From contig JAPLDF010000065.1 of the NCBI GenBank assembly GCA_026391835.1, forward strand, positions 62,001 through 126,000: DNA of 64,000 nucleotides. The letters run 5' to 3'. The notes under the pieces were generated by a model that was not told the origin of the DNA, made no database searches, and saw only the letters and a list, made by a program, of their open reading frames with translations. The DNA comes from Bacteroidota bacterium. GTDB lineage: Bacteria > Bacteroidota > Bacteroidia > Bacteroidales > FEN-979. A program made the position numbers and the translations under genes. Each line of letters starts with the position of its first letter. Within the stretch, counting starts at the first letter, position 1. Positions 6,432 through 32,199 of this stretch are shown piece after piece.

Positions 6432-7556
6432 ATGAATGAAGTGACCAATAAAAAAAAGAAAAATATTTTTGAACGGAATCCCAAAATCACAATCACCTTC
6501 CTCCTGTTGTTTGTTTTTGTAATCCTCGATTGCATTATCGCCCAGTTAGTCAGCAAAAAGGAGAGCAAAAAGCACTACAGTAATTTTCACAGCTATTACC
6601 ATCATGCTTTAAAACCAAACCTTGATATAAAATACACCTGGGGAAAGGGAGAATATAAATTATCAACCAATTCGCTTGGGTTTAAAGACTCAGTGTCACT
6701 AGCCATTGACAAGCGAAGTAGCAAAAAGAGATTTCTGTTTATAGGCGATTCGTTCACCGAAGGAATTGGCATCGATTTTGGAAAAACGTTCGTTGGCATC
6801 CTCAAAAGCCACTACCCGGAATTTGACATCCAGAATGCGGGTGTCCGCTCCTATTCTCCAAAACTTTATTACCTGAAAACCAGGTACCTTATCGAGGAAG
6901 AACATATATGGTTTGATGAATTAGTCGTTTTTATTGACATATCTGACATACAGGATGAACTTGTTTATGAAAATTTCATCCCGCACAAACCAGAAATGAA
7001 ATCATTTTTTACAACCCTTGCTGAGAATATTCTGACCTTTATTAAAGAGAATTCGTTTATCCTCTCCATTTCAACCAAAAAGAATGGAGGAAATTCAACC
7101 AATCAGGATAATAAACGTGCAGTCCCGGGGCGCCCCTATACCGAACCGGCTGCCAATGGTTTTTCATCGGATAAAGATTACCAGAGAGAAAGGCCCAGAT
7201 GGACATTTGATGACGAGATTTACCGTAAATGGGGAAAAAGGGGAATTGGTTTGGCTATCCGGAATATGCAAAAACTGTATGACCTGTGCACCAGGAATGG
7301 CATCAAACTAACAATTGCCGTATACCCCTGGCCTGATCAAATCAGGCAAAATGACCTGGAATGCAAAGAAGTCATCATCTGGAAGGACTTTGCACAACTA
7401 CATCAAATAAGGTTCATTGACTTTTTCCCGGATTTTATTACAGCACAAGACACCAGCGTAATTAAAAAATATTTTATCGAGGGGGATGTCCATTGGAACG
7501 AGCAAGGTCATAAAAAAATTGCGGACAAGATTATCCTCGAAAACTATATTCAATAA
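6432..7556 (+). CDS. Membrane-anchored SGNH hydrolase, AlgX/acyltransferase-like
   Basis: 374 residues. A basic N-terminus and one transmembrane helix (about 18-38) leave the catalytic domain outside the cytoplasm. The SGNH block I motif FIGDSFTEG is at about 103-111 (Ser107). The C-terminal catalytic Asp/His lie in 'EGDVHWNEQGH' (Asp352, His354), the DxHW form seen in AlgX/AlgJ-type O-acetyltransferase-like SGNH proteins rather than the plain DxxH of lipases. Such proteins often add or remove acyl groups on exported polysaccharides. It is divergent from the SxtJ/carbamoyltransferase genes, so a joint role in decorating an envelope glycan is plausible but inferred. Confidence 0.85.
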   Translation: MNEVTNKKKKNIFERNPKITITFLLLFVFVILDCIIAQLVSKKESKKHYSNFHSYYHHALKPNLDIKYTWGKGEYKLSTNSLGFKDSVSLAIDKRSSKKRFLFIGDSFTEGIGIDFGKTFVGILKSHYPEFDIQNAGVRSYSPKLYYLKTRYLIEEEHIWFDELVVFIDISDIQDELVYENFIPHKPEMKSFFTTLAENILTFIKENSFILSISTKKNGGNSTNQDNKRAVPGRPYTEPAANGFSSDKDYQRERPRWTFDDEIYRKWGKRGIGLAIRNMQKLYDLCTRNGIKLTIAVYPWPDQIRQNDLECKEVIIWKDFAQLHQIRFIDFFPDFITAQDTSVIKKYFIEGDVHWNEQGHKKIADKIILENYIQ

Positions 7557-7580
7557 TAACCTGCAAGGCAAAATGAGACG

Positions 7581-7624
7581 CCCATATTAACAACGTCAAT
7601 GCAAACCGTTAATGAGAATATGGG
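7581..7624. repeat. Inverted repeat after the SGNH gene
   Basis: CCCATATT at 7581-7588 is the reverse complement of AATATGGG at 7617-7624, with a partial inner TTAAC/GTTAA pairing. There is no T-run, so it is a weak terminator candidate or an operator before the DUF5063 gene. Confidence 0.4.
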
Positions 7625-7661
7625 TATTCCATGTAACCATTAAAAAACAAATTATTACAAT

Positions 7662-8207
7662 ATGAAAACGAAAACAGCAAATCCTGAAGATGATCCCTTA
7701 TACTCTGTAAAAGTACTTGAGATGATTACGGTTGCCAATGAATTCTGCCTGTTTCTGGAGAAAGCGGAAGCATATGATTTGCAGATCATGCTAAATTTCC
7801 TGCAGAAAGTCACACCGCTGATCTACCTTAAAAGCTCCCTGCTTCCTGATATTGAGGTGACCGATGAGGATGCGGTTGAGCATTACGTTACGGAAGAGCA
7901 GTGGGAAGCAATGTTTAACCTGCTTTACAACAAGTTCGGGCCTGCCGACGAGTTTTATTTTGTAGATATCCATGAAAAGAGCCACCACGATCCTGTAAAA
8001 GGCAGCCTCGCCGAATGCTTTACCGATGTATACCAGGACATGAAGGATTTTTTAACATTGTACCAGAATCCCCTGAGAACCTTTAAAGAAAATGCTGTCA
8101 GGGAATGTAAAAGGTTGTTCGAGACGCGATACGGGTACAAGCTGATCAATGCCCAGTCTGCCATTCACTGTGTTCTCTACCCGGCAGATGACGATATGAT
8201 CTTCTAA
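7662..8207 (+). CDS. DUF5063 family protein
   Basis: 181 residues, acidic, with no signal peptide or membrane helix. It begins 'YSVKVLEMITVANEFCLFLE' and ends 'AIHCVLYPADDD', which fits the DUF5063 family as I know it from Bacteroidota: small all-helical cytoplasmic proteins of unknown function. It stands alone, 105 bp after the SGNH gene and convergent with the TPR lipoprotein gene (9 bp gap). No catalytic motif is evident. Confidence 0.75.
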   Translation: MKTKTANPEDDPLYSVKVLEMITVANEFCLFLEKAEAYDLQIMLNFLQKVTPLIYLKSSLLPDIEVTDEDAVEHYVTEEQWEAMFNLLYNKFGPADEFYFVDIHEKSHHDPVKGSLAECFTDVYQDMKDFLTLYQNPLRTFKENAVRECKRLFETRYGYKLINAQSAIHCVLYPADDDMIF

Positions 8208-8216
8208 CCCGCCAAA

Positions 8217-9254
8217 TCATTTTTTAACGTTGACCTTATCTAGCCTGTTAAGTCCTTCGATGGCCTTATCGTAATTAACTTTGATTTTTAGCGATTTCTG
8301 ATAATCATCATATGCGTTCCTGAAATCACCCGACAATTCGTAGGCATATCCCCTGTTAAAAAAAGCTTCAAAGTAGGTGGGATCCTTTTTTATTGATTCG
8401 CTGAAAAACTGGACTGCTTTTTTAAAGTCTTTCAGGTAAACCAGGTAAATATACCCGGTGTTATAGGATGCTTCACGAAAGGCAGTATCTGATATGGCCA
8501 ATTGATGATAAGTAGCAATGGCTTTATCGTACATTCCGGTTTCCTGGTAATAAAGCCCCAGGATATAGAGTGCTTCCCTGCTTGATGGACGCAGGGTCAG
8601 TGCATTTTTCAGGTACAACTCAGCCACCGGATCTTTCTTCATCGAATAGAGTTCACCAAGCTGGACAAAAGCTTCAAAGTATTGCTGGTTTTTATCCACA
8701 GCCTGTTTAAGGTCGTTCACAGCATGGATGGTATCTCCCTGCTCAAGCAACCCGATGGCCCTTGTGAAATACGCTGATGCGTTCCCATTATCAATGGCAA
8801 GCAACTGCTTCACCGTAGCGTAACAGTTTTTATAATCCTTGATAATCAGGTAAAGTTTCGCCAGTTTAAGAAGTGCATCGGTGTCGCGGGGATTTTTACT
8901 GATCGCCTTGTTTAATGCGTCTTTGCTCTCCCCGGGTTTCCCCATTAGAAGGTATATGTCGGACAGTGTGACAAACGAAGCTGATTTGTTATTATCCAGA
9001 GAAATTGCTTTGTTAACATCCTTCAGTGCATTGTCGAAATCGTGATCAAGCAGGTAACATTTGGCCCGCAGGTTATAAAGGTCCGGATTTGAAGCATCAG
9101 CTTCAATTTGCTTATTCAGAATTTCGAGTTTCTGATGCATCGTATCCCCGGTTTGTTTTTGCCTGTTTGCAGTATCTCCTCCATGGTGGCATGAAGACAT
9201 GGCAAACAGGCAAAGCAGAAGACAACTGACAACGATTTTAATCATATTATACAT
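8217..9254 (-). CDS. TPR-repeat lipoprotein
   Basis: 345 residues. The N-terminus has a hydrophobic stretch ending in a lipobox-like 'LFAMSSC' (Cys at about residue 22), so it is probably a lipoprotein exported by Sec and lipidated. The rest is a run of tetratricopeptide repeats of about 34 residues from residue 50 to the end ('[20 protein letters not shown]', '[20 protein letters not shown]' and similar). TPR arrays bind other proteins; the partner is unknown. The first ATG overlaps the recA stop by 8 bp; a second ATG at 9245 is equally possible. It is the last gene of the nth-bcp-recA run. Confidence 0.85.
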
Positions 9255-12820: not shown

Positions 12821-13978
12821 TTATTTGATACGGAGAATGGCCACAGAACCCTTTTTGACCTGGTCCCCAAATTGTCCGGTCAGTTTCAGGATATAGAAAT
12901 AGGTTCCATCTGAAAGGTGATCGCCATCCCAATCTTCACTTTTGTAATTAACCTCGTTGTACACTTTTCGTCCCCACCGGTCAAACACCAGGAATTCATT
13001 GGCCAGGTAAGCCTTACGAAAGTCCTTTTCAGTGTCATTCTGAATCTGGATGACGAATTTATCATTTACCTTGTCATCATTGGGCGTAAAGACATTGGGG
13101 ATATCAAGGATTGCATGTTTAACGGTAAATTCATTCAGAATTGTCGTATCACAGCCATTTACATCGGTATAGGTAAGCCGGATACGGATATGTCCCTGTT
13201 TAAGGGTGTCACTGTAGGTTTCCATCCGTTTGTTTAAAAAATCCTCTCCGTACGTGTGGGAAACCGGGTTCAAATCGCGGATTGTAATACCGTCGCCAAA
13301 ATCCCAGGTCCAGTTCATCAAATGCTTTTTCATCGAATCCGGAAAAACTACCTCGATGGTGGGGTTTGTAAAATAGATCAGGGTGTCGGGCTGGATTTCA
13401 AAAGTAACCTTGGGCGATTTTAAAAAATCGACAAAATAGGTTGTGTCCAGCGAACATCCCAATGAATCCGTTACCCTGAAGGTATAAGGAACAAGTTTCG
13501 GACAGAGGCCGAATACGATGGTATCCTGCGAATGCCCGCCATTCCATTCATAAATATACGGAGGATCATTTTTGAAAGGTGTTCCGCCGGAAACATGCGT
13601 TTTGAACTGCCCTTTGCATTCCCCAAAACATCCGAGCGGGTTATAGCGATACAAAGTATCAATGAACATCCGGGGCTTCATCCATAACTGAACGGAGTTG
13701 ACGGGAACAATGATCCCGGCAGCAGTAATGGTGCAATGATACACACCCGGAGAGTTGCTTGTTACGGGATCGATGATATAAATGGAATCGGTTGCACCAG
13801 AGATATCGTCGATTCCCTTTTGCCACTGGTATGTAAGCGGTCCAGCCGTAGTTACAGTGGCAATGAATGTAATACTGTCGTGAAAGCAAACGGTATCATT
13901 GGGCTGTACAACAACGGGGTCCTGGCTCATGGCCACTACGCTGCAAAAAACAAATAGTACAAGAAGGAAATGTTTCAT
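12821..13978 (-). CDS. Secreted surface protein with Ig-like, PKD and type B gliding/T9SS C-terminal domains
   Basis: 385 residues from the ATG at 13978; an ATG four codons upstream would leave almost no leader after the -7 element at 13999-14006. Order: signal peptide (about 1-19); Ig-like domain ('LTYQWQKGIDDISGATDS' region, about 20-105); SprB-like repeat ('GCFGECKGQFKT' to 'LGCSLDTTYFVDF'); PKD domain ('NWTWDFGDGI'); and the CHU_C/gliding C-terminal domain starting 'IPNVFTPNDDKVND' with 'FDRWGRKVY' and 'WDGDHLSDGTYFYIL'. This domain directs type IX secretion (type B signal). At under 400 residues it is short for such adhesins. Partner unknown. Confidence 0.88.
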   Translation of the reverse strand: MKHFLLVLFVFCSVVAMSQDPVVVQPNDTVCFHDSITFIATVTTAGPLTYQWQKGIDDISGATDSIYIIDPVTSNSPGVYHCTITAAGIIVPVNSVQLWMKPRMFIDTLYRYNPLGCFGECKGQFKTHVSGGTPFKNDPPYIYEWNGGHSQDTIVFGLCPKLVPYTFRVTDSLGCSLDTTYFVDFLKSPKVTFEIQPDTLIYFTNPTIEVVFPDSMKKHLMNWTWDFGDGITIRDLNPVSHTYGEDFLNKRMETYSDTLKQGHIRIRLTYTDVNGCDTTILNEFTVKHAILDIPNVFTPNDDKVNDKFVIQIQNDTEKDFRKAYLANEFLVFDRWGRKVYNEVNYKSEDWDGDHLSDGTYFYILKLTGQFGDQVKKGSVAILRIK

Positions 13979-13998
13979 CTGGAGTTTCAATGCTGCCG

Positions 13999-14006
13999 CA
14001 AAAATA
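13999..14006 (-). promoter_or_regulatory. Candidate -7 element for the type IX cargo gene
   Basis: Reads TATTTTTG on the minus strand, matching TAnnTTTG, 20 bp before the preferred ATG. No clear -33 TTTG. Confidence 0.35.
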
Positions 14007-14088
14007 AGAATTTCTTTGATTCCGGCTACTTATTACATAACGCTCCATTGACCATGGTTATTATTGAACCATCAAACTCATTTGCGGA

Positions 14089-14451
14089 TCAATAGAGATT
14101 GTTGGAAATCATGATCAGCGTACAGGCGTGAACAACTTCAATTCCTGCTGACGAAAGCCGTTCTGCAAATGCGGGTGACTCGGTTCCCGGGTTGAAGATC
14201 ACGCGTTTGGGATTCAGGCCCAGGATATAGTCATAATAGGTTGTCAGGTTTTTCGGACCAATATAAATGGTTACCGTGTGAATATCCTCGAATTTCGGAA
14301 AAGGCTTTTCAATCCTGACGCCGCTGATCTCCCCTTCCCTGAGCCCTACCGCAACAACCGGTATGTTTCCATATTTCAACTTCCTCACAGCCATATATGA
14401 GAATCGTTCCGGGTTGGTACTGGCTCCAAGGACCAAGGTTTTCTTCTTCAC
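14089..14451 (-). CDS. CoA-binding domain protein (YccU-like)
   Basis: 120 residues forming a single Rossmann-like CoA-binding domain: 'KTLVLGASTNPERFSYMA' at the N-terminus, then 'VVAVGLREGEISG', 'DIHTVTIYIGP' and 'RVIFNPGTESPAF'. The family resembles the CoA-binding half of succinyl-CoA ligases; the stand-alone proteins bind CoA but have no settled function. Monocistronic between the type IX cargo gene and clpB. A CAAAAATA (minus-strand TATTTTTG) at 14476-14483 could be its -7 element. Confidence 0.88.
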   Translation of the reverse strand: MKKKTLVLGASTNPERFSYMAVRKLKYGNIPVVAVGLREGEISGVRIEKPFPKFEDIHTVTIYIGPKNLTTYYDYILGLNPKRVIFNPGTESPAFAERLSSAGIEVVHACTLIMISNNLY

Positions 14452-21903: not shown

Positions 21904-22692
21904 ATGACCCAATTCAACCTCCCATTCTTACCCGACCGCACCGCCAAACCACGACAAAACGGGATTGCGATGGTTATGGACAAAGGCTTAAGTGTGCGCG
22001 AAGCAGAAGACTTTGTTGAATCGGCAGGCCACCTGGCTGATTTTGTCAAACTTGGGTTTGGAACATCCATGGTTGGCAATAAGGTTAAAGAGAAGGTGAA
22101 GGTATACCACCAGGCCAACATCAGGGTTTATGTCGGAGGGACACTGTTCGAAGCCTTCGTCATCCGCAACCAGTATGATGAATACCTGAAGTATATTGAC
22201 CAGTTGGGGCTCGATACCATTGAAGTTTCCGATGGCTCAATGCTTATGGAACATGATGTGAAATGTGAGTATATTCACAAATTATCAAAAAACTACACGG
22301 TTCTTTCTGAAGTTGGTTCCAAGGAATCAGGAATTATCATCGCCCCCGGGCGATGGATCGAAATGATGCAAAAAGAGTTGCAGGCCGGCGCCTTAAAAGT
22401 GATCGGGGAGGCAAGGGAAAGTGGAAATGTGGGGATATACCGTGCAACCGGTAAGGCACATGTGGCCCTGATCAAAAAAATCCTGGCAAAAGTCCAGGGG
22501 GATAAACTGCTTTGGGAAGCCCCGCTGAAAGCACAGCAGGTTTGGTTCATCAAAAACTTTGGCGCCAATGTGAATCTTGGTAATATAGCCCCGGCAGAAC
22601 TTATCCCGCTTGAAACGTTACGGCTTGGATTGAGGGGTGATACTTTTTTCAGCTTCCTGCCGGCTAAATACGGGAAGTTTCAGCCAAAATAG
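21904..22692 (+). CDS. comA: Phosphosulfolactate synthase family protein
   Basis: 262 residues. The family adds sulfite to phosphoenolpyruvate to make (R)-phosphosulfolactate, first step of one coenzyme M route. It is a TIM barrel; visible family segments are 'KPRQNGIAMVMDKGLS', 'FVKLGFGTSMV', 'VYVGGTLFEAF', 'TIEVSDGSM' and 'EVGSKESG'. In Bacteroidota the product is unlikely to feed coenzyme M; a sulfolactate or sulfonolipid role is possible but not shown here, and no comB/comC neighbours are present. It starts 12 bp after the heptad array and is probably co-transcribed with aroE. Confidence 0.88.
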   Translation: MTQFNLPFLPDRTAKPRQNGIAMVMDKGLSVREAEDFVESAGHLADFVKLGFGTSMVGNKVKEKVKVYHQANIRVYVGGTLFEAFVIRNQYDEYLKYIDQLGLDTIEVSDGSMLMEHDVKCEYIHKLSKNYTVLSEVGSKESGIIIAPGRWIEMMQKELQAGALKVIGEARESGNVGIYRATGKAHVALIKKILAKVQGDKLLWEAPLKAQQVWFIKNFGANVNLGNIAPAELIPLETLRLGLRGDTFFSFLPAKYGKFQPK

Positions 22693-23547: not shown

Positions 23548-23572
23548 CCGGAGGAGATCATTGTCCGTCGCA

Positions 23573-24475
23573 ATGATTCACGAGACTCTTCCAGATATCC
23601 AGGCAATGTCAAAAATCGCACACATCCTTTATATTTTCGTTCTGTCCGCGATTGTATTGTTCGTGTTCATTACAATTTCGTACATCGGGTATTCCTATTA
23701 CAGCCTGGGAATTGAAGATCGGTTCTTTCATCCCGGTCACTTAAACCTGAAGCCGAGCGGAGTCTGGGGGCACGGGTTTGGTATCATCGGATCCCTACTG
23801 ATGATCATCGGTGTTGCCTTCTACATGGCACGCAAGCGGTTCAGGGTTTTTAACCGTGTCGGCATCCTTAAACACTGGCTCGAGTTTCACATATTCCTTT
23901 GTTCACTTGGGCCCATCCTGGTGCTGTTTCATACCTCTTTCAAATTCGGGGGGCTTGTGGCAATCAGTTTCTGGAGCATGGTGGCTGTCTTTGTGAGTGG
24001 AATTATCGGCCGGTTTATCTATATTCAAATCCCCCGTACAATAGAAGGCCGCGAATTAAGTTTAAATGAAGTACGGGAATTGAAGAGCGGCATCGGCGAT
24101 AACATCCAGAAACTTGTATCCCTGGATGCTGAAAGCTACAATGTAATTGTAGAATCAACAAAGAAGAAAGTTGAACTATATCATAAAAACTTCCTGGTGC
24201 GCTATATCAGAAAATACAGCGACGACCGGAGAACACTTCTCAACGTAAAAAAGGTCCTCAGGCGAAACAAAATTACCAAACCGCAGCAAAAACAGGTACT
24301 GGACCTTGTGAAAAGTGATATCTCACTCAACAGAAGGATCGAAAGGCTTGTGATCATGCAGAACCTGTTCAAATACTGGCATGTAGCCCATTTGCCTTTT
24401 GCACTCGTGATGCTGATCATCATGATCATACACGTTACGGTAACAATCGTTTTTGGATATCGCTGGATCTTTTAA
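23573..24475 (+). CDS. Cytochrome b-like integral membrane protein
   Basis: 300 residues from ATG 23573 (a TTG at 23561, 4 nt after GGAGGAG, is the alternative start). Four helices lie in the first 160 residues and one at the C-terminus, with a basic, helical cytoplasmic stretch of about 100 residues between. Several His sit in or beside helices: 'WGHGFGIIG', 'LKHWLEFHIF', 'VLFHTSF', 'WHVAHLPF' and 'MIIHVTVTI', a pattern expected for b-haem ligands. It is not a standard cytochrome b family I can name. It begins a gene set with an FeS flavoprotein and two multihaem cytochromes, so quinone/haem electron transfer in the inner membrane is the likely role. Confidence 0.7.
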   Translation: MIHETLPDIQAMSKIAHILYIFVLSAIVLFVFITISYIGYSYYSLGIEDRFFHPGHLNLKPSGVWGHGFGIIGSLLMIIGVAFYMARKRFRVFNRVGILKHWLEFHIFLCSLGPILVLFHTSFKFGGLVAISFWSMVAVFVSGIIGRFIYIQIPRTIEGRELSLNEVRELKSGIGDNIQKLVSLDAESYNVIVESTKKKVELYHKNFLVRYIRKYSDDRRTLLNVKKVLRRNKITKPQQKQVLDLVKSDISLNRRIERLVIMQNLFKYWHVAHLPFALVMLIIMIIHVTVTIVFGYRWIF

Positions 24476-24477
24476 CC

Positions 24478-25812
24478 ATGGAATTACTGTTTGAAAAATT
24501 TGCAGCTTACTCGGTGGCGATCCTTTTCTGCCTGATCGTGGTCATCATTTACCTTCGCAAACAAAAACGGGATTCGAAGAAGGTTGAGGAGAAAATTGTC
24601 AAGGCAAAACTGGAAGGAATGTATGAGCCTGTTTCCCTTCATCCTGTGGTTGATGAGGGAAGTTGCATCAGGACCGGGGCCTGCATTGCTGCCTGTCCCG
24701 AAAAGGATATCCTTGGAATAAGGAATGGCAAAGCCACAACCATCAATGCCTCGCAATGTATCGGGCACGGTGCCTGCTTTCATGCCTGCCCCACCCAGGC
24801 TATTACACTGTGTATCGGTACTGAAAAAAGAGGGGTCGAACTCCCCCATATTGACCAGAACTTTGAGTCAAATATCCCTGGAATATTTATTGCCGGTGAA
24901 CTGGGAGGCATGGGGCTCATCAAAAACGCCGTGGAACAGGGCAGGCAGTCGGTTGAAAATATTGTAAAATCACTGAAAAAAAACCACCAGGCCACCTACG
25001 ACCTGATCATCGTAGGGGCAGGACCCGCCGGGATTTCGGGATCGCTTACAGCAAAAAAACATCAGCTCAGGTTTCTCACCCTGGACCAGGACACCCTGGG
25101 TGGAACGGTTTTCACCTTTCCAAGGTCTAAAATAGTCATGACTTCAGCCATGGACCTGCCGCTGTACGGTAAAGTAAAGCTCTATGAAACGAGCAAGTCG
25201 GAATTGCTCGATTTGTGGAAGACTGTCCTGAAAAAGAACGACATCACCATCCGGGAAAATTCAAAGGTAGAAGCCATCCTATCCGAAAACGGCCATTTTA
25301 AAATTGAAACGCTGAGCGGAGAACAATTTACGGCGAAAACCGTACTTCTTTCGATCGGACGTCGCGGTACCCCAAGAAAACTGGGCATCCCCGGAGAAAC
25401 ACTTGAAAAGGTAGCCTACAAGCTTATGGAACCCGAAGCAATATCAGGAAAAGCGATCATGATTGTCGGAGGGGGTGACTCCGCGATTGAATCCGCGCTT
25501 TCGCTTGCCGATCAGAACGATGTGACAATTTCATATCGCAGCGAGGTTTTCAGCCGGTTAAAACCAAAAAACAATGAAAAAATAAATGAAGCCATCTCCT
25601 CCGGGAAAATTAAAGTGCTTTTCAACACCACCCCGGTGAAGATTGACAAGGAATTCGTTTTGCTTTCGCCAACAACGGGCAGTGAAGAGATAAAAGTCAA
25701 AAATGACCTGATCTATATTTTTGCCGGAGGCGAACTCCCAACCCAGTTCCTGAAGAAGGTAGGTTTGGAGATCACCAAAAAATTTGGTGAAGCGATTTTA
25801 AAACATAAATAA
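24478..25812 (+). CDS. Membrane-anchored FeS/FAD NAD(P)-binding oxidoreductase
   Basis: 444 residues. One N-terminal helix (about 10-26) anchors it. Then come two ferredoxin-type motifs, each lacking the second Cys: Cys63-x2-Thr66-x2-Cys69-x3-Cys73-Pro and Cys94-x2-His97-x2-Cys100-x3-Cys104-Pro. A segment 'GIFIAGELGG' (135-144), normally the C-terminal FAD motif of this fold, comes before the first Rossmann motif GAGPAG (180-185); a second dinucleotide motif GGGDSA is at 331-336. No TrxR-type CxxC pair is present. It starts 2 bp after the cytochrome b-like gene. Likely moves electrons between NAD(P)H, flavin and FeS at the membrane, feeding or draining the cytochromes downstream. Confidence 0.82.
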   Translation: MELLFEKFAAYSVAILFCLIVVIIYLRKQKRDSKKVEEKIVKAKLEGMYEPVSLHPVVDEGSCIRTGACIAACPEKDILGIRNGKATTINASQCIGHGACFHACPTQAITLCIGTEKRGVELPHIDQNFESNIPGIFIAGELGGMGLIKNAVEQGRQSVENIVKSLKKNHQATYDLIIVGAGPAGISGSLTAKKHQLRFLTLDQDTLGGTVFTFPRSKIVMTSAMDLPLYGKVKLYETSKSELLDLWKTVLKKNDITIRENSKVEAILSENGHFKIETLSGEQFTAKTVLLSIGRRGTPRKLGIPGETLEKVAYKLMEPEAISGKAIMIVGGGDSAIESALSLADQNDVTISYRSEVFSRLKPKNNEKINEAISSGKIKVLFNTTPVKIDKEFVLLSPTTGSEEIKVKNDLIYIFAGGELPTQFLKKVGLEITKKFGEAILKHK

Positions 25813-25936
25813 CAGGGAGTTGTTCTCGCAGATTTACGAGGAAAAGACAGCAGATTCGGGCAGAATTCATTAAAGATATTATGATCGGGTCCATTTAAAA
25901 ATTTGTGGGATAACCTCAACCAGTATAATCAGGCAC

Positions 25937-27553
25937 ATGAAATTAAGGGAAGGGCATATTTATTTTATTATTTTTCTCGTCCTGATGGGCAGTTATCATG
26001 GTTTTGCCCAAATCTCACCGGGGGAACTGGCAAAAGTTCATACCCAGCTTGAGGGAATGACGAATTGTACCAAATGTCATATCCTGGGGAAAAAAGTTTC
26101 CAATCAAAAATGCCTGGACTGCCATACGGAACTGAAAGCCAGGGTCGTGTTAAAAAAAGGATATCATGCATCGTCTGATATTGCGGGGAAGGAGTGTGTT
26201 ACCTGTCACAGTGATCACCACGGATTGAATTTTCAAATTATACGGTTTGTAAAGGAAAAGTTTAACCACAGTTTAACAGGGTTCAACCTGACCGGTGCGC
26301 ATGCAAAAAAACTCTGCATCGACTGTCATAAACCTGAATTCATCAAGGATCAGAAAATAAAGAAGAAAAAGTTCACCTACCTGGGGTTAAACACAACCTG
26401 TTTAACGTGCCATGCGGATTATCACCAGCAAACGCTTTCTTCCAACTGTACAGATTGTCACGTTGCCGAAGCATTCAAACCGGCAAAAAACTTCGATCAT
26501 GGCAAGGCGAAATTCCAACTGGCCGGCAAACACCAGCAGGTCGCCTGCGTGCTGTGCCACAAGACGGGGGTACAGAATGGGCAGAAATTCCAGGAATTCA
26601 AAGGAGTCAGATTCGACAATTGCTCCAGTTGCCACAAAGACGCCCATAACGGCAAATTCGGGACTAACTGCACGCAATGCCATAGTGAACAATCATTCAG
26701 CATAATCAAGGGTGCTCAGAATTTTGATCACAACAAGACGGATTTCATACTCGAAGGAAAACATCTTAAGGTTACCTGCAATGCCTGCCACAAAACAAAA
26801 CTTACCAATGCCTTAAAATTTGGCCGCTGTGTTGACTGCCACGCCGACTATCATAAAACCCAATTCGAAAAACAAGGCGTTTCTCCCGACTGTTCACAAT
26901 GTCATACCGTGAACGGATTCAACGAATTCACCTTTACCATAGAACAGCATAATGCGGGGGCTTTCAGGTTGAAGGGAGCGCACCTGGCAACACCTTGTTT
27001 TGCCTGCCATAAAAAGGAGATCACCCGGGGTGATACGAACTGGCATTTCAGGGAAATCGGAAAGCGGTGCGTTGATTGTCATACCAATATTCATCAAACC
27101 ATTATCAGTGACAAGTTTTATCCTGATGCCGGTTGCGAAAACTGCCACAATGAGAGCAAGTGGAACTCAATAGCTTTTGATCACAAAACAACCAGCTTTG
27201 AACTCGCCGGGGCGCATACAAAGAAAACCTGCCGCGATTGTCATTTCAGGAAGGGAAGCGACGGGACCGTTCGTCAGCAATTCAATGGCCTGCCCACCAG
27301 GTGCGCATATTGCCACAACGACATGCACGCAAACCAGTTTGAACAGAATGGCGAAACAGATTGCAGCAGGTGTCACGACCTTGTCTTATTCAAACCCGCT
27401 GCAAAATTTGATCACAATAAAACGCTGTTTCCACTGGATGGAAGACATAAGGATGTTGCCTGTATCAAATGTCACAAGGTAAAACAGGAGAAAGATATTG
27501 CTTTTGTTCTATACAAAATAAAAGAATTCAAATGCGAAAACTGTCATCATTAA
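25937..27553 (+). CDS. 20-haem c-type cytochrome
   Basis: 538 residues with a signal peptide (about 1-24, 'FIIFLVLMGSYHGFAQ'). I count 20 CxxCH motifs, about one per 27 residues, from Cys44 to the last residues (CENCHH). A repeated module is obvious, of the type 'FDHNKT.F.L.GKH..V.C..CHK', seen at least six times; the extra His could be the distal haem ligand. Periplasmic or cell-surface electron transfer is the expected role. No lipobox. The following cytochrome gene starts inside this one. A 124-bp gap separates it from the FeS flavoprotein gene, without a convincing promoter. Confidence 0.95.
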   Translation: MKLREGHIYFIIFLVLMGSYHGFAQISPGELAKVHTQLEGMTNCTKCHILGKKVSNQKCLDCHTELKARVVLKKGYHASSDIAGKECVTCHSDHHGLNFQIIRFVKEKFNHSLTGFNLTGAHAKKLCIDCHKPEFIKDQKIKKKKFTYLGLNTTCLTCHADYHQQTLSSNCTDCHVAEAFKPAKNFDHGKAKFQLAGKHQQVACVLCHKTGVQNGQKFQEFKGVRFDNCSSCHKDAHNGKFGTNCTQCHSEQSFSIIKGAQNFDHNKTDFILEGKHLKVTCNACHKTKLTNALKFGRCVDCHADYHKTQFEKQGVSPDCSQCHTVNGFNEFTFTIEQHNAGAFRLKGAHLATPCFACHKKEITRGDTNWHFREIGKRCVDCHTNIHQTIISDKFYPDAGCENCHNESKWNSIAFDHKTTSFELAGAHTKKTCRDCHFRKGSDGTVRQQFNGLPTRCAYCHNDMHANQFEQNGETDCSRCHDLVLFKPAAKFDHNKTLFPLDGRHKDVACIKCHKVKQEKDIAFVLYKIKEFKCENCHH

Positions 27554-29691
27554 TTCTGCTGTTGGCACTCTCTGTCAGCCTGTTTTCACAATCATCACCG
27601 CATGGTGATGGTTTTGCCGTCAACTGCATGGATTGCCACAATACCGCCGGGTGGACCATCGACATGAAAACCCTGGTGTTCGACCATAGTACGACGAAGT
27701 TTCCGCTTACCGGGCAGCACCAGGCGGTGAACTGCAAATTATGCCACACATCCCTGGATTTTACAAAAGCGGGCACAGAGTGTGTTTCTTGTCACACCGA
27801 CATGCATAATCAGACTCTGGGTCCCGATTGCGGAAGATGCCATACACCTGTTTCGTGGGTAGTGAACAACATCACGGAGCTGCACCAGAAAAGCCGGTTC
27901 CCGCTGGTTGGAAAACATCTTGCCACCGATTGTTTTGCCTGCCACAAGAATGCGTCCGCTTCCTTGCTCAATTTTGCCCCGCTTGGCGTGGAATGCATTG
28001 ATTGTCATAAAGCTCCGGTTCCGCCACAAACGGACCATTCGAAATTTTCCACCAACTGCACCGAATGTCATTCCATGAACGCTTTTTCATGGACGGGTGC
28101 ATCTATAAATCATGGTTTTTTCCCGCTCACCGGCGGTCATAAAATCAGCAATTGTCAGGAATGTCATAAAAATTCGAATTATTCTGAAGCTTCACCTATA
28201 TGCTTTACATGCCATGAACCAACATACAACGGCACTTCAAACCCCAATCATAACACCATCGGGTTTTCAACAAGTTGTAAAGATTGCCATACCACGAACC
28301 CGGGATGGAAACCTGCCGAATACCGTGAGCATGATGCCAAATCATTTCCTATTTACTCGGGAAAACACAATGGTACCTGGAACAGTTGCGCCGAATGCCA
28401 TACCAACCCGGCCAGCTACGCACAATTCACCTGCATCGATTGCCACGATCACAACCAGCCCGATATGAACGGACAGCATGGTGACGTCCAGGGATATGCC
28501 TACAACAGCCCGGCCTGTTTCGCCTGTCACCCGACCGGCTCCAAGGAGGGGTCATTCTCCCATAATTCTTCCCCTTTCCCATTAACCGGGGCACATTCAA
28601 CAACCGAGTGTATCAAATGCCATGCGAACGGGTATCCCAATACCCCAACCACCTGCGTCAGCTGCCACATGCAGAATTTCAATCAATCTGTAAACCCAAA
28701 CCATGCCGCAGACAATATTCCCACTGATTGCGGAACCTGTCATACCACACAACCTGGCTGGAAACCGGCGACCTTCCCGATCCACGACAACTATTACATT
28801 ATTGCAGGTGCACATATTCCAATTGCAAATGATTGTGCCAAATGCCACCAGGGTAATTATGCCAACACCCCGAAATTATGTTTCGGCTGCCATTCAGAAA
28901 AATACAACCAGTCGACAAACCCTAACCATATAACGGCCAACTTCCCCACAACCTGTGAAACATGTCATTCACAAACAGCATGGTCCCCTTCGACGTTCAA
29001 TCATAACATCACCTACCCGCTCACCGGCGCCCATGCAACCATCGCCAACAATTGCTTTGCATGCCACCAGGGAAGCTACGTCAATACCCCCAATACATGT
29101 GCAGGATGCCATACCCCGAATTACAATGCTTCGACAAACCCAAATCACGCAGCCATCAACATTCCGACAACCTGCATTACCTGCCACACCACGAATCCAA
29201 ACTGGACACCCGCCACTTTCCCGATCCACAGCAATTATTATGTACTGGCTGGCGCGCATGTCACGGTGAGCTGCATCGATTGCCACAACGGAAACTATAA
29301 TGCAACACCCAATACCTGTGTCGGATGCCACCAGACAAATTATAACCTGACAAACAATCCACCGCATGCGGCATCACAGTTTCCGACCACCTGTGCCGAT
29401 TGTCATACACAAACTGCATGGTCTCCCGCAAACTGGAATCACGACGGCCTCTATTTCCCGATTTATTCCGGAAAGCATAAAAACAACTGGAGTACATGTT
29501 CCGACTGCCATACAAACCCGGCCAACTATGCCGTTTTCACCTGCACAACATCTTGTCATCCTCAGTCATCGATGAACAACAAACACCAGGGTATCAGCGG
29601 GTACTCCTACAACAGTGTCGCCTGTTTAAGTTGCCATCCGCAGGGAAATACGCCTAAATTGATGAAAAGTACAATCGACAGCAAAGAGTAA
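27532..29691 (+). CDS. 28-haem c-type cytochrome
   Basis: 719 residues from the ATG at 27532, which gives a clean signal peptide (about 1-19) and overlaps the previous gene by 22 bp; an earlier in-frame start lacks a signal. It has 27 CxxCH motifs and one CxxxCH (CTTSCH, bases 29542-29559), so up to 28 haems. From residue 229 there are five copies of a 73-77-residue three-haem module (about 229, 380, 455, 528, 601), each with 'NPNH' and ending in a CxxCH. The C-terminus after the last haem is short and has no sorting domain. Probably the outer wire of the conduit, periplasmic or surface-exposed. Confidence 0.95.
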   Translation: MRKLSSLILLLALSVSLFSQSSPHGDGFAVNCMDCHNTAGWTIDMKTLVFDHSTTKFPLTGQHQAVNCKLCHTSLDFTKAGTECVSCHTDMHNQTLGPDCGRCHTPVSWVVNNITELHQKSRFPLVGKHLATDCFACHKNASASLLNFAPLGVECIDCHKAPVPPQTDHSKFSTNCTECHSMNAFSWTGASINHGFFPLTGGHKISNCQECHKNSNYSEASPICFTCHEPTYNGTSNPNHNTIGFSTSCKDCHTTNPGWKPAEYREHDAKSFPIYSGKHNGTWNSCAECHTNPASYAQFTCIDCHDHNQPDMNGQHGDVQGYAYNSPACFACHPTGSKEGSFSHNSSPFPLTGAHSTTECIKCHANGYPNTPTTCVSCHMQNFNQSVNPNHAADNIPTDCGTCHTTQPGWKPATFPIHDNYYIIAGAHIPIANDCAKCHQGNYANTPKLCFGCHSEKYNQSTNPNHITANFPTTCETCHSQTAWSPSTFNHNITYPLTGAHATIANNCFACHQGSYVNTPNTCAGCHTPNYNASTNPNHAAINIPTTCITCHTTNPNWTPATFPIHSNYYVLAGAHVTVSCIDCHNGNYNATPNTCVGCHQTNYNLTNNPPHAASQFPTTCADCHTQTAWSPANWNHDGLYFPIYSGKHKNNWSTCSDCHTNPANYAVFTCTTSCHPQSSMNNKHQGISGYSYNSVACLSCHPQGNTPKLMKSTIDSKE

Positions 29692-29701
29692 AGCCAGAGC
29701 C

Positions 29702-31336
29702 ATGAAAAATTTCCCCCCTGTCATACTGTTAATGCTTATTGTTCCAATCCTTAAAGGACAAACAACCTATGAGAATAAGGAAGGAAAAGTATCCTATGTA
29801 ACCACACAGAATGTATATGTTAAATTTCAGTCAACAGAAAACATTTCAGCCGGGGACACACTTTTCTCCATCCAGAATGGCGTTCGGGTTCCGGTGGTCG
29901 TAGTCAGGGAAATCTCCTCCATTTCATGTGTTTGCGTTCCAATATCCGCTGAAAAGCTGGCTGTGGGTGATTTGATTTATTCCACGCAAAAAGCCCTACA
30001 GACAGCCTCCACCTGGAACAAAAATGCCGCGGCAGACGTTCCTGTTGTTGCCGCAAGCCAGGATTCAACTGTAACGAAAGCCGGGCAGCAAAAAAAACGG
30101 ACCCAGATCGTGACCGGAAACCTGTCGGTCGCTTCCTATCTGAATTTTTCAAATGCCACAGCCAATTCCCAGAGGATGAAGTATACCTTTTCCCTGGGGA
30201 TTCAAAACATTGGAAATTCGAAACTATCGGCAGAAATCTACATTGCATTTGCGCACAAGCTGGGTGATACCGCTATTCGAACCGACATATTCAACGGGTT
30301 GAAAATATACAGCTTCGCGCTGGATTATGCGTTTAACAGGCACCACACGATCTGGCTGGGCAGAAAAATCAACCCGAGAATTTCCAATGTTGGGGCAATA
30401 GACGGGCTCCAGTATGAAGCGAAGGCCGGTGCTTTTACAATTGGTGTTATTGCCGGGACGAGGCCTGACTACCGGAATTACAGCTTTAACGCAGCTCTTG
30501 TGCAGGTGGGTGCATATCTTGGCCATGACCTTGCGGGAAAAAACGGTACCATGCAAACGACCGTTGCCTTTCTAGATCAAACAAACAACGGTAGCACCGA
30601 TCGCAGATTTGCCTATTTGCAGCACACCAACTCACTGATACGCAATTTGTTTTTCTTCGGATCGGTTGAAGTTGACATGTATAAACAAACGATGAATCCG
30701 CTGGATACTGCTGTAAGCAAGGAGGCAACCTATAAAAAAGACAATTCCCCTACCCTTTCCAACCTCTATTTATCCCTGAGATACAGGCCTTTCAGGAAGT
30801 TGTCCCTGTCTGTTTCATACAGTACCCGGCAGAATGTCATCTACTATGAAACCTATAAGGATATTGTCAGTACGCTGCTCGCAGCTGCAAGTGTGCAGGG
30901 GTTGACGTTCCAGGTCAATTACCAGCCTGTCAGGCTGATATCCCTTGGCGCCAACGCTGGGTACAGGAACAGTAAAAACGATCCCCGGCCAACAAAAAAC
31001 ATTTACGGTTACCTGACATTCAACAATATTCCAGGTATAAACGTGGCAGCCACCCTTTCGGCTACCATCCTGGAAACAAGTTATATGTCGGGACAGATCT
31101 ACAGTCTTGGACTTACCCGCGATCTTGTTCCGGGAAAACTATCTGCGGGATTGGACTATCGCTATGTGAGCTATAAGTTTTACAGCGGGGAGACAAAACT
31201 GGTCCAAAATATGGGGGAAGTGAATTTTACATGGCGCATTTTAAAGAAACTTTCATGCGGCCTTTATTATGAAGGAACCTTTGATAAGACATCCACGTTT
31301 AACCGTATTTACATCAATATAACTCAAAGGTTTTAG
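29702..31336 (+). CDS. Predicted outer-membrane beta-barrel of the cytochrome cluster
   Basis: 544 residues with a signal peptide (about 1-19). An N-terminal region (20-100) looks like a small beta domain. Residues about 140-544 are amphipathic strands with the aromatic girdle and final 'YINITQRF' (C-terminal Phe) typical of outer-membrane barrels. It lies 10 bp after the 28-haem gene. By analogy with MtrB/PioB-type porin-cytochrome conduits it may let a multihaem protein pass through the outer membrane; no sequence similarity to MtrB could be tested. No CxxCH motif in this protein. Confidence 0.7.
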   Translation: MKNFPPVILLMLIVPILKGQTTYENKEGKVSYVTTQNVYVKFQSTENISAGDTLFSIQNGVRVPVVVVREISSISCVCVPISAEKLAVGDLIYSTQKALQTASTWNKNAAADVPVVAASQDSTVTKAGQQKKRTQIVTGNLSVASYLNFSNATANSQRMKYTFSLGIQNIGNSKLSAEIYIAFAHKLGDTAIRTDIFNGLKIYSFALDYAFNRHHTIWLGRKINPRISNVGAIDGLQYEAKAGAFTIGVIAGTRPDYRNYSFNAALVQVGAYLGHDLAGKNGTMQTTVAFLDQTNNGSTDRRFAYLQHTNSLIRNLFFFGSVEVDMYKQTMNPLDTAVSKEATYKKDNSPTLSNLYLSLRYRPFRKLSLSVSYSTRQNVIYYETYKDIVSTLLAAASVQGLTFQVNYQPVRLISLGANAGYRNSKNDPRPTKNIYGYLTFNNIPGINVAATLSATILETSYMSGQIYSLGLTRDLVPGKLSAGLDYRYVSYKFYSGETKLVQNMGEVNFTWRILKKLSCGLYYEGTFDKTSTFNRIYINITQRF

Positions 31337-31429
31337 CCGGTCTTCTCCCTAAAGTACTCTGTCTTACAACCTATTATCCTCCCGGGAACCAGATATCATT
31401 ATGAAGGGAACCATGTGAAATGATTATTA

Positions 31430-31437
31430 TATCTTTG
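31430..31437 (+). promoter_or_regulatory. Candidate -7 element of the OB-fold gene
   Basis: TATCTTTG matches TAnnTTTG, 36 bp before the ATG at 31474, suggesting the gene can be transcribed apart from the cytochrome cluster. No -33 seen. Confidence 0.35.
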
Positions 31438-31473
31438 TGCCCTGAAAATCTAAAATTTTTAACACCTGTTTTT

Positions 31474-32199
31474 ATGAATAGAAACAAGATAATAGTAACC
31501 GCCGTCTTATTGGTCCTGGGTGTTTTTTTTATCGTGACAACCTGCTACAGAAGCGGGGGAAAAAGCAATGCAAGGGTTCTGCCCCCGGGTACACATGGAG
31601 TTGTTGTCAAAGAGGTCATACAAACATCCAATTACACCTATCTGCAGGTGCAGGAAAATGAGAACAAGTTCTGGATGGCAATTGTGAAACATGATTCAAA
31701 GCCCGGCGATTCGGTATATTACAGCCAGGCCTTCGAAATGAAAGCGTTTGTAAGCAAAGAGTTAAACCGCACCTTTCCTTCCATATTTTTTGTCCAGGAT
31801 CCCAAGGGCAGCCTTGAAGTTGCAAATACTGAACAGCAGCCAAAAACTCCCCAAAAAGTTGAAATAAAACGCTGGACTGATGTATCAATCACACCCCCCA
31901 AGGGTGCCATTACCATCGCCGATCTTTATAAAAACCCGGGCGGGTATGCCGGGAAAACAGTTACCATCAGGGGCATTGTTGTCAGGTACAACGATCAGAT
32001 CATGAATAAAAACTGGGTTCATTTGCAGGATGGAACTGACTTTTCCGAAAAATTCGACCTGACCGTAACCACCACCGACAAACTCGTTCTCGGCACAACG
32101 GCAACATTCACAGGGATCATATCCCTGAACAAGGATTTTGGCTCAGGCTACTCCTATGATGTAATCATGGAAGAGGCCAAAGCTACGGATATTAAATAG
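31474..32199 (+). CDS. Exported protein with two OB-fold-like domains
   Basis: 241 residues from the ATG at 31474. A hydrophobic N-terminus (about 5-23) ends in 'IVTTC', a poor lipobox; it may be a lipoprotein or simply anchored. Two beta-rich parts follow: residues about 38-115 ('GVVVKEVIQTSNYTYLQVQ') and 150-241 ('YAGKTVTIRGIVVRYNDQI', 'WVHLQDGTD', 'TATFTGIISLNKDFGSGYSY'), the latter a nucleic-acid-binding-type OB fold in shape. In an exported protein this probably binds something else. It follows the conduit cluster by 137 bp; its last 8 bp overlap the DUF4342 gene tail-to-tail. Confidence 0.6.
   Translation: MNRNKIIVTAVLLVLGVFFIVTTCYRSGGKSNARVLPPGTHGVVVKEVIQTSNYTYLQVQENENKFWMAIVKHDSKPGDSVYYSQAFEMKAFVSKELNRTFPSIFFVQDPKGSLEVANTEQQPKTPQKVEIKRWTDVSITPPKGAITIADLYKNPGGYAGKTVTIRGIVVRYNDQIMNKNWVHLQDGTDFSEKFDLTVTTTDKLVLGTTATFTGIISLNKDFGSGYSYDVIMEEAKATDIK

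Follow-up and report, generated by a model that had tools for sequence, protein, structure and literature searches.

MtrA, a cytochrome c with 10 haems, moves electrons across the outer membrane together with MtrB, and porin-cytochrome (Pcc) conduits, among them OmbB-OmaB-OmcB of Geobacter and the more remote IALB_1838-1840 of Ignavibacterium album, have porins with 18-22 predicted strands and a periplasmic cytochrome with 5-14 haems (passages of PMC4245776). Pcc genes have also been reported from the Ignavibacteria (part of PMC7399161). An anode-community member, Bacteroidetes_1, has a seven-gene cluster with six multihaem cytochromes and a barrel (excerpts of PMC8258643), and the humic Trout Bog has Bacteroidetes porin-cytochrome candidates without known homologues; for one Trout Bog candidate, from an unbinned contig, 51 haem sites are given (excerpts of PMC6344600). 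Here we analyze five adjacent genes, g1 to g5, in a stretch of 64,000 nucleotides (the window; contig JAPLDF010000065.1, positions 62,001 to 126,000) from a Bacteroidota bacterium. The set is best read as kin of the porin-cytochrome kind in a new form, outside the Mtr family.

The set resembles the Geobacter and I. album conduits in that a predicted barrel adjoins multihaem cytochromes. Unlike the Pcc cytochromes, those here have 20 haems (g3) and 10-64 haems (g4), and a predicted inner-membrane cytochrome b and an NAD(P)-type flavoprotein are part of the same operon; the Pcc systems were compared by description, not by sequence, and no model named after OmbB, OmaB or OmcB came up in the Pfam and NCBIfam searches. 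Likewise by description alone, the Bacteroidetes_1 and Trout Bog sets share with this one the phylum and the combination of barrel and multihaem cytochromes. The likeness to MtrCAB, PioAB and MtoAB consists in a proposed haem wire inside an outer-membrane barrel and in the shortest g4, which has as many haems as MtrA, whereas no MtrC-type lipoprotein was seen here and the entry is unlike CymA. The initial annotation had found no Mtr-like protein at the locus, and model searches agree: g5 did not match the MtrB/PioB models (PF11854, TIGR03509), PF11854 had no match in the window's genome, and g3 and g4 reached 51.4 and 42.1 bits with the MtrA/DmsE model TIGR03508, far below its cut-off of 192.2. 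In the literature covered (mostly open-access, with preprints outside it) there was no recognisable description of the five-gene set, of an NAD(P)-type entry or of a three-haem rule; the set is not described in the available portions of PMC5317091, PMC3669403 and PMC13374861, and the main text of PMC8805035, on the spread of Mtr, has no words starting with bacteroid, ignavibacteri or FCB.

A candidate conduit with inner-membrane entry, periplasmic wire and outer-membrane exit had been proposed for these genes, and their joint conservation supports it. We consider it rather probable that the five genes form one trans-envelope, NAD(P)H-fed conduit to the cell surface. Cytoplasmic NAD(P)H would be oxidised by the membrane-anchored flavoprotein g2, whose two iron-sulfur (Fe-S) clusters would pass electrons to g1, with its b haems stacked across the inner membrane; electrons would then enter the periplasmic 20-haem wire g3 and next g4, which with the barrel g5 would span the outer membrane and reach outward to an acceptor such as humics, Fe(III) or Mn(IV) minerals, or partner cells. 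This reading is built on the conserved gene set, on the ligand patterns for haems and Fe-S clusters, on the almost fixed haem number of g3 and on the three-haem rule of g4; from these we infer the NAD(P)H donor, the outward flow, the seating of g4 in g5 and the external acceptor. More tentatively, and as a possibility rather than an expectation, the set may be a Bacteroidota-wide, quinone-free NAD(P)H conduit in which a 10-haem core and three-haem modules, up to 64 haems, make a genetically adjustable cable whose length sets its reach.

A conserved five-gene set

All five genes are on the plus strand. g1 (23561..24475) encodes a predicted five-helix, two-b-haem membrane protein (open reading frame (ORF), alignment and hydropathy scan); g2 (24478..25812) a protein with an N-terminal anchor, two ferredoxin-type Fe-S motifs, and FAD and NAD(P) domains (Pfam/NCBIfam and alignment); g3 (25937..27553) a 20-haem cytochrome c with a signal peptide (CxxCH count and alignment); g4 (27532..29691) a 28-haem cytochrome c with a signal peptide, from a length-variable family, whose gene overlaps g3 by 22 bp; and g5 (29702..31336) a predicted outer-membrane beta-barrel with an N-terminal soluble domain and a C-terminal Phe. 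The ORF list starts g4 at 27469, but the signal peptide MRKLSSLILLLALS starts at 27532; g1 may start at the ATG at 23606 rather than at the TTG at 23561. Promoter and terminator scans gave values near those of shuffled controls and were set aside. The initial annotation had given five same-strand ORFs spaced by 2, 124, -22 and 10 bp, correctly, and 48 c haems in all. Its 20 CxxCH motifs in g3 stand; its 28 for g4, and with it the total, hold if a CX3CH motif is counted beside 27 CxxCH. The description of g1 as His-rich was generous (12 His in 304 residues), whereas cytochrome b-like fits its two conserved His pairs, and the Fe-S, FAD and NAD(P) domains expected of g2, described as a membrane-anchored FeS/FAD protein with a second dinucleotide site, were found. 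New beyond those claims are a probable NAD(P)H-linked entry, the variation of g4 by modules of three haems, and the frequent occurrence of the set in the phylum.

In the window's own genome and 60 relatives, g1 occurs in 25 of 61 genomes and g5 in 27; all 25 carriers of g1 have g5, and the two genomes with g5 only have mere fragments. This conserved co-occurrence indicates that the cluster is not a product of chance. The stretches around it in 20 relatives keep the g1-to-g5 order as far as their contigs reach; the assembly splits or fuses one gene in L054, L056 and L057 (loci are cited by number), and an additional g4-like gene is present in L048 and L058. A wider set, the named loci, comprises the best 80 of 451 stretches with a g1 relative, drawn from 84,980 genomes, one per species; the titles of these best 80 records name Bacteroidota taxa in 76 cases, "uncultured bacterium" in three and Chlorobiota in one. 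All 57 uncut named loci read g1-g2-g3-g4-g5. The other 23 of the 80 stop at, or no more than 600 bp from, the end of the locus and agree with this order over their extent. The arrangement typical of Pcc systems, a barrel gene adjoining multihaem cytochromes, is thus present in 57 of 57, provided that g5 is a barrel. In the same 57 loci g3 and g4 always overlap, by a median of -22 bp (from -94 to -19), a sign of possible translational coupling; g1 and g2, like g4 and g5, are never more than 54 bp apart.

In a sample of the phylum, g1 matched at E 0.001 in 44 of 395 genomes and 36 of 171 genera; 40 of the matches were strong (E < 1e-60) and four weak and partial. From the 44, 39 loci were extracted, omitting the window's own genome and the four weak partial matches (the locus sets may share species). 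Sixteen have the order g1-g2-g3-g4-g5 and 15 the order g1-g3-g4-g5-g2, so that 31 of 39 are complete; the remaining eight are a lone g1 (L179), a decayed locus (L190), a locus with an odd ORF (L195) and five that are truncated at the end of a contig or assembly (L200, L202, L203, L206 and L208). The strongest indication that its parts work together is that the set stays complete despite the reordering. It also occurs in a cultured strain, Emticicia oligotrophica DSM 17448, where plasmid pEMTOL02 has a CcsA/ResB cytochrome c maturation gene 15 bp before g1, followed by g1, g2, g3 (23 haems), g4 (40 haems), g5 and g6; among 72,556 plasmid records this is the sole match of g5 (E 0.01) and of g2 (E 1e-40). 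Kept together across the phylum in two orders and on a plasmid, the genes do not show the lack of conservation that would have spoken against a conduit. The five-gene set is a real, conserved and widespread unit.

Electron export is seldom discussed for the Bacteroidota, which are common polymer degraders of lakes and sediments. With a strong g1 in about one in ten of the sampled species, almost always with its partners, many presumed fermenters or aerobes could, if the conduit reading is true, dump electrons on humics or minerals. The lengths of g4 would provide a natural series for studying charge movement along haem chains, and the presence of the set in a named, cultured strain makes direct testing possible.

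The proposed haem wire and the predicted barrel

The haem number of g3 is nearly constant: 20 in 87 of 101 loci, 23 in 10, 19 in three and 14 in one, the last being a piece of the split L175 gene (L084 and L108, where the gene is split in two ORFs, are left out). In 17 aligned sequences the 20 CxxCH motifs and 21 further His are invariant. These His suffice for two per haem, which points to a wire without an obvious catalytic site. The identity of the set as a nitrite or sulfur enzyme was set aside because all g3 haems have a candidate distal His, and because no such enzyme was recognised by eye among the 25 most recurrent neighbour groups (Pfam was not run on them). A search of the PDB with the g3 profile gave as its best match 3ov0, a multidomain cytochrome of Geobacter (E 9e-6). 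3ov0 has c7-type haem spacing and serial modules; its haem number is fixed at 12, as against 20 in g3 and 10-64 in g4. Both cytochromes exceed the cut-off of PF14522, the cytochrome c7/c3 fold (81.2 bits for g3 and 91.7 for g4; cut-off 24.8). The trihaem nanowire domain TIGR04257 gave 15.2 bits for g3 against a cut-off of 40, and no match for g4 at 0.1.

In contrast to the near-constant g3, g4 ranges from 10 to 64 haems, with 17 distinct values, and in 91 of 93 genes the number is one plus a multiple of three. The 93 are the uncut genes, one copy per locus, of 120 loci (the window, the 80 named and the 39 phylum loci), 59 from the window and the named loci and 34 from the phylum loci; extra g4-like copies (e.g. 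in L090, L118, L182 and L197-199), the stretches of the 20 relatives and Emticicia are outside this count. The count takes CxxCH, CX3CH and CX4CH alike; with CxxCH alone the 1 + 3n rule fits 70 of 93 genes, and with CX3CH added 88. The exceptions are L066 (30 haems) and L206, which is cut by Ns. Another count, of 64 ORFs including second copies, gave 60 that fit. The rule indicates gain and loss in units of three haems behind one leading haem, a conclusion that needs no statistics across kin genes. With 24.4 residues per haem a module takes about 73 residues, and in the window's g4 (all plus strand) a lone leading haem motif (27625..27639) is followed, by haem spacing, by nine three-haem modules (27733..29637, first to last haem motif), the last of which holds the CX3CH motif (29542..29559). 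This motif is invariant in the 17 aligned sequences, and any CX3CH occurs in 20 of the 93 genes of the wider set. In L101 and L133 the corresponding site of the last module is CxxCH, and a middle module of the same type has CX4CH.

A change in module number is illustrated by L095 and L093, in which g4 has 34 and 49 haems, a difference of five modules, and the other four proteins are 90-96% identical. An assembly artefact was rejected as the source of the length change, since the repeats of the L093 g4 (E <= 1e-20) are at most 79% identical at the DNA level; in the window's g4 the DNA has short imperfect repeats only. The 10-haem forms of L184-L186 and L193 resemble the long ones in their start and end sequences, and L183 has both a long and a 10-haem g4. 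Because the shortest g4 has the haem number of MtrA, a 10-haem core may cross the membrane and the rest extend it; the number of modules then probably sets the reach of the wire. Directly before the barrel gene, L197, L198 and L199 encode an additional g4-like protein that has 9 haems and lacks the last haem motif. The MtrC-type model PF22113 gave 46.9 bits for g4 (cut-off 30) and 28.1 for g3; a 7-haem Alteromonas cytochrome also passes it with 33.4, so that it looks generic for CxxCH repeats. The g4 profile had no match in the PDB, and no lipobox was seen by eye after the g4 signal peptide. The window encodes, at 12821-13990, a PKD protein with a CHU_C type IX secretion signal; the genome therefore has cargo of the type IX secretion system (T9SS), whereas no such domain was found on g3 or g4.

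g5 is predicted to be an outer-membrane beta-barrel from its sequence pattern. Past an N-terminal domain of some 115 residues, the alternation score over 85 homologues suggests about 22 strands when counted crudely by hand, which would agree with the 18-22 strands of Pcc porins (passages of PMC4245776); the C-terminal Phe is present in 77 of the 85. At E 1, 17 homologues gave no MtrB_PioB match and weak Porin_4 matches in two, the best at 0.11. An N-terminal Cys pair was considered as a redox motif and dismissed, its two Cys being kept in just 53 and 56 of the 85.

Proposed electron entry and direction of flow

g1 is a candidate cytochrome b. H95 (nt 23888) and H109 (nt 23930) are present in 122 of 122 homologues, including four from Proteobacteria, and H262 (nt 24389) and H276 (nt 24431) in 121, the remaining one having a gap; H56 and H259 are not conserved in the Proteobacteria. 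Each pair has a spacing of 14 residues and the pairs lie on predicted helices 3 and 5. This is the spacing of classical di-haem cytochromes b. g1 is therefore predicted, from these His, to bind two stacked b haems at bis-His sites on its transmembrane helices. The hydropathy scan, in which helices 3 and 4 are poorly separated, and the loop charges (6 K/R and no acid in one loop, 26 K/R and 14 D/E in a long one) suggest five helices, an N-terminus inside and a haem pair near each membrane face. g1 has no Pfam family above cut-off and no NCBIfam match; 13 of 17 homologues have a weak DUF4405 match, the best at E 0.0029, and a PDB search with the g1 profile returned noise only.

In g2 a single anchor helix is followed by two Fe-S motifs (24664..24789, plus strand; CxxTxxCxxxCP and CxxHxxCxxxCP in the alignment) and, according to Pfam, by FAD and NAD(P) domains. 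C63, C69, C73, C94, H97, C100 and C104 are each present in 113 of 113 homologues. The second motif, CxxHxxCxxxC, with His at the second ligand position in all 113, likely binds a Cys3His cluster; at that position of the first motif (24664-24696) the residue varies by lineage (69 homologues have T, 29 have S, 14 have C and one has A). NAD(P)H binding may be inferred from similarity to the domain families. YpdA and thioredoxin reductase share the motif GGGPCG and a catalytic Cys. The flavoprotein part of g2 has no Cys pair and reads GAGPAG where GGGPCG is expected, and g2 falls far below the cut-offs of TIGR04018 (YpdA, its nearest NCBIfam model; 155.2 against 339.9 bits) and TIGR01292 (thioredoxin reductase; 74.3 against 343.45), so these assignments were rejected. 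The low YpdA score and the missing thiol residues make electron transfer likelier for g2 than disulfide reduction.

A path of this kind is known from the NADPH oxidases and ferric reductases (NOX, STEAP and FRE), which move electrons from NAD(P)H by way of FAD through two stacked b haems across a membrane. They differ from the present set, in which g1 and g2 are separate proteins and electrons would pass onward to c haems, and no Pfam match of g1 to these families turned up. A further parallel is found on plasmids. Eleven plasmid records have a g1 match, 10 of them proteobacterial (seven Alteromonas), and in the four examined (L213-L216, from Methylophaga, Acetobacter, Alteromonas and Qipengyuania) the g1 homologue, 24-32% identical and listed just as hypothetical, always has a 2Fe-2S protein on one side and a 7-haem cytochrome on the other. 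Pfam, run on the 2Fe-2S proteins from three of these plasmids, shows FAD, NAD and 2Fe-2S domains of the ferredoxin-reductase (FNR) type, unrelated to g2. An unrelated flavoprotein in the seat of g2 is the main reason for favouring NAD(P)H, rather than quinol, as the donor.

Known outer-membrane conduits are quinol-fed. The same conduit could be fed by menaquinol. In that case g1 would be a quinol dehydrogenase like CbcL or CymA, and g2 would serve in regulation, as a side entry or as a quinone-linked dehydrogenase. Di-haem b proteins are able to oxidise quinol, quinol-linked cytochrome b partners are discussed in part of PMC4245776, and in 15 of the 39 phylum loci g2 comes last in the operon. 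We regard this reading as unlikely, given that g2 is present in 36 of the 39 (the exceptions being the lone g1, the decayed locus and a contig end) and that all three of the proteobacterial neighbour proteins run in Pfam, out of four, are NAD/FAD/Fe-S proteins. Still less probable is a periplasmic electron store or detoxifying reductase, with the barrel as a separate channel for small substrates. Forty-eight haems could store many electrons, no surface-export signal was seen on the cytochromes, and the modules of L213-L216 adjoin copper-resistance or hydrogenase genes; however, the listed genes of those stretches (an incomplete table) include neither a barrel adjoining the module nor a long cytochrome, so that what surrounds them may say little about the five-gene set, the invariant His of g3 leave no evident open site, and the predicted barrel gene is present in 57 of 57 uncut named loci. 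The least probable of these readings is inward flow, with Fe(II), reduced humics or partner cells supplying the electrons from which g2 would make NAD(P)H or reduced ferredoxin. It would suit the occurrence of the set in Emticicia, an aerobe, and in a genome with three COX1-family genes. Such conduits can be bidirectional according to part of PMC8258643, but NAD(P)H formation from Fe(II) is uphill and would require an energy-coupled step, and none was seen in the cluster.

Against an outward, NAD(P)H-fed conduit stand several observations. No surface lipoprotein or T9SS-type signal was seen on g3 or g4, NAD(P)H binding is deduced by similarity, and the strand count of g5 is a hand reading of a protein that has no Pfam or NCBIfam match at E 0.1 and for which a PDB search returned noise only, with no credible relative. 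Several genomes of the same genus, some nearly complete, have neither g1 nor g5. L179 (14304-15179) has g1 without partners in a single-contig genome, and L190 is a decayed remnant with a g5 fragment, so the set can be lost piecemeal; in L195 a 605-residue ORF between g4 and g2 (7076-8893), perhaps a diverged barrel, has no match to the g5 profile. Finally, with three COX1-family genes in the window's genome and with Emticicia living aerobically, respiration of minerals is not obviously needed.

Neighbouring genes and genome context

The neighbour comparison covered genes beyond g1, g2 and g5 in 103 loci longer than 9 kb. g6 (31420..32199, plus strand), with a single hydrophobic anchor, goes with the cluster in some members of the order as well as in Emticicia and occurs in 21 of the 103 loci, 20 of them named loci. 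An anchored protein of 211 residues (e.g. L204:12629-13264) lies near the cluster in 16 of the 103, all in the phylum sample, and every other neighbour group in at most eight. Adjoining the lone g1 of L179, an ORF at 13671-14288 is similar by eye to the 211-residue protein. Beside the Emticicia cluster, on the opposite strand (L212:6905-11527), are genes for a c-type cytochrome, YceI, a DUF5777 barrel, a Rieske protein, a barrel and a sigma factor.

The window's genome (5.35 Mb in 86 contigs, 96.7% complete) has three matches to the cytochrome c assembly family and three to COX1, and the organism can probably respire oxygen or NO. The window's own genes escaped genome-wide searches with PF13435 and PF14522, which are too coarse for counting the multihaem cytochromes of a genome. 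Elsewhere in the window a single frame with at least two CxxCH motifs was found, 62 codons long and with two of them. Two genes upstream of the cluster, 21904-22692 encodes a ComA-type phosphosulfolactate synthase (PF02679), a possible hint of sulfonolipid synthesis.

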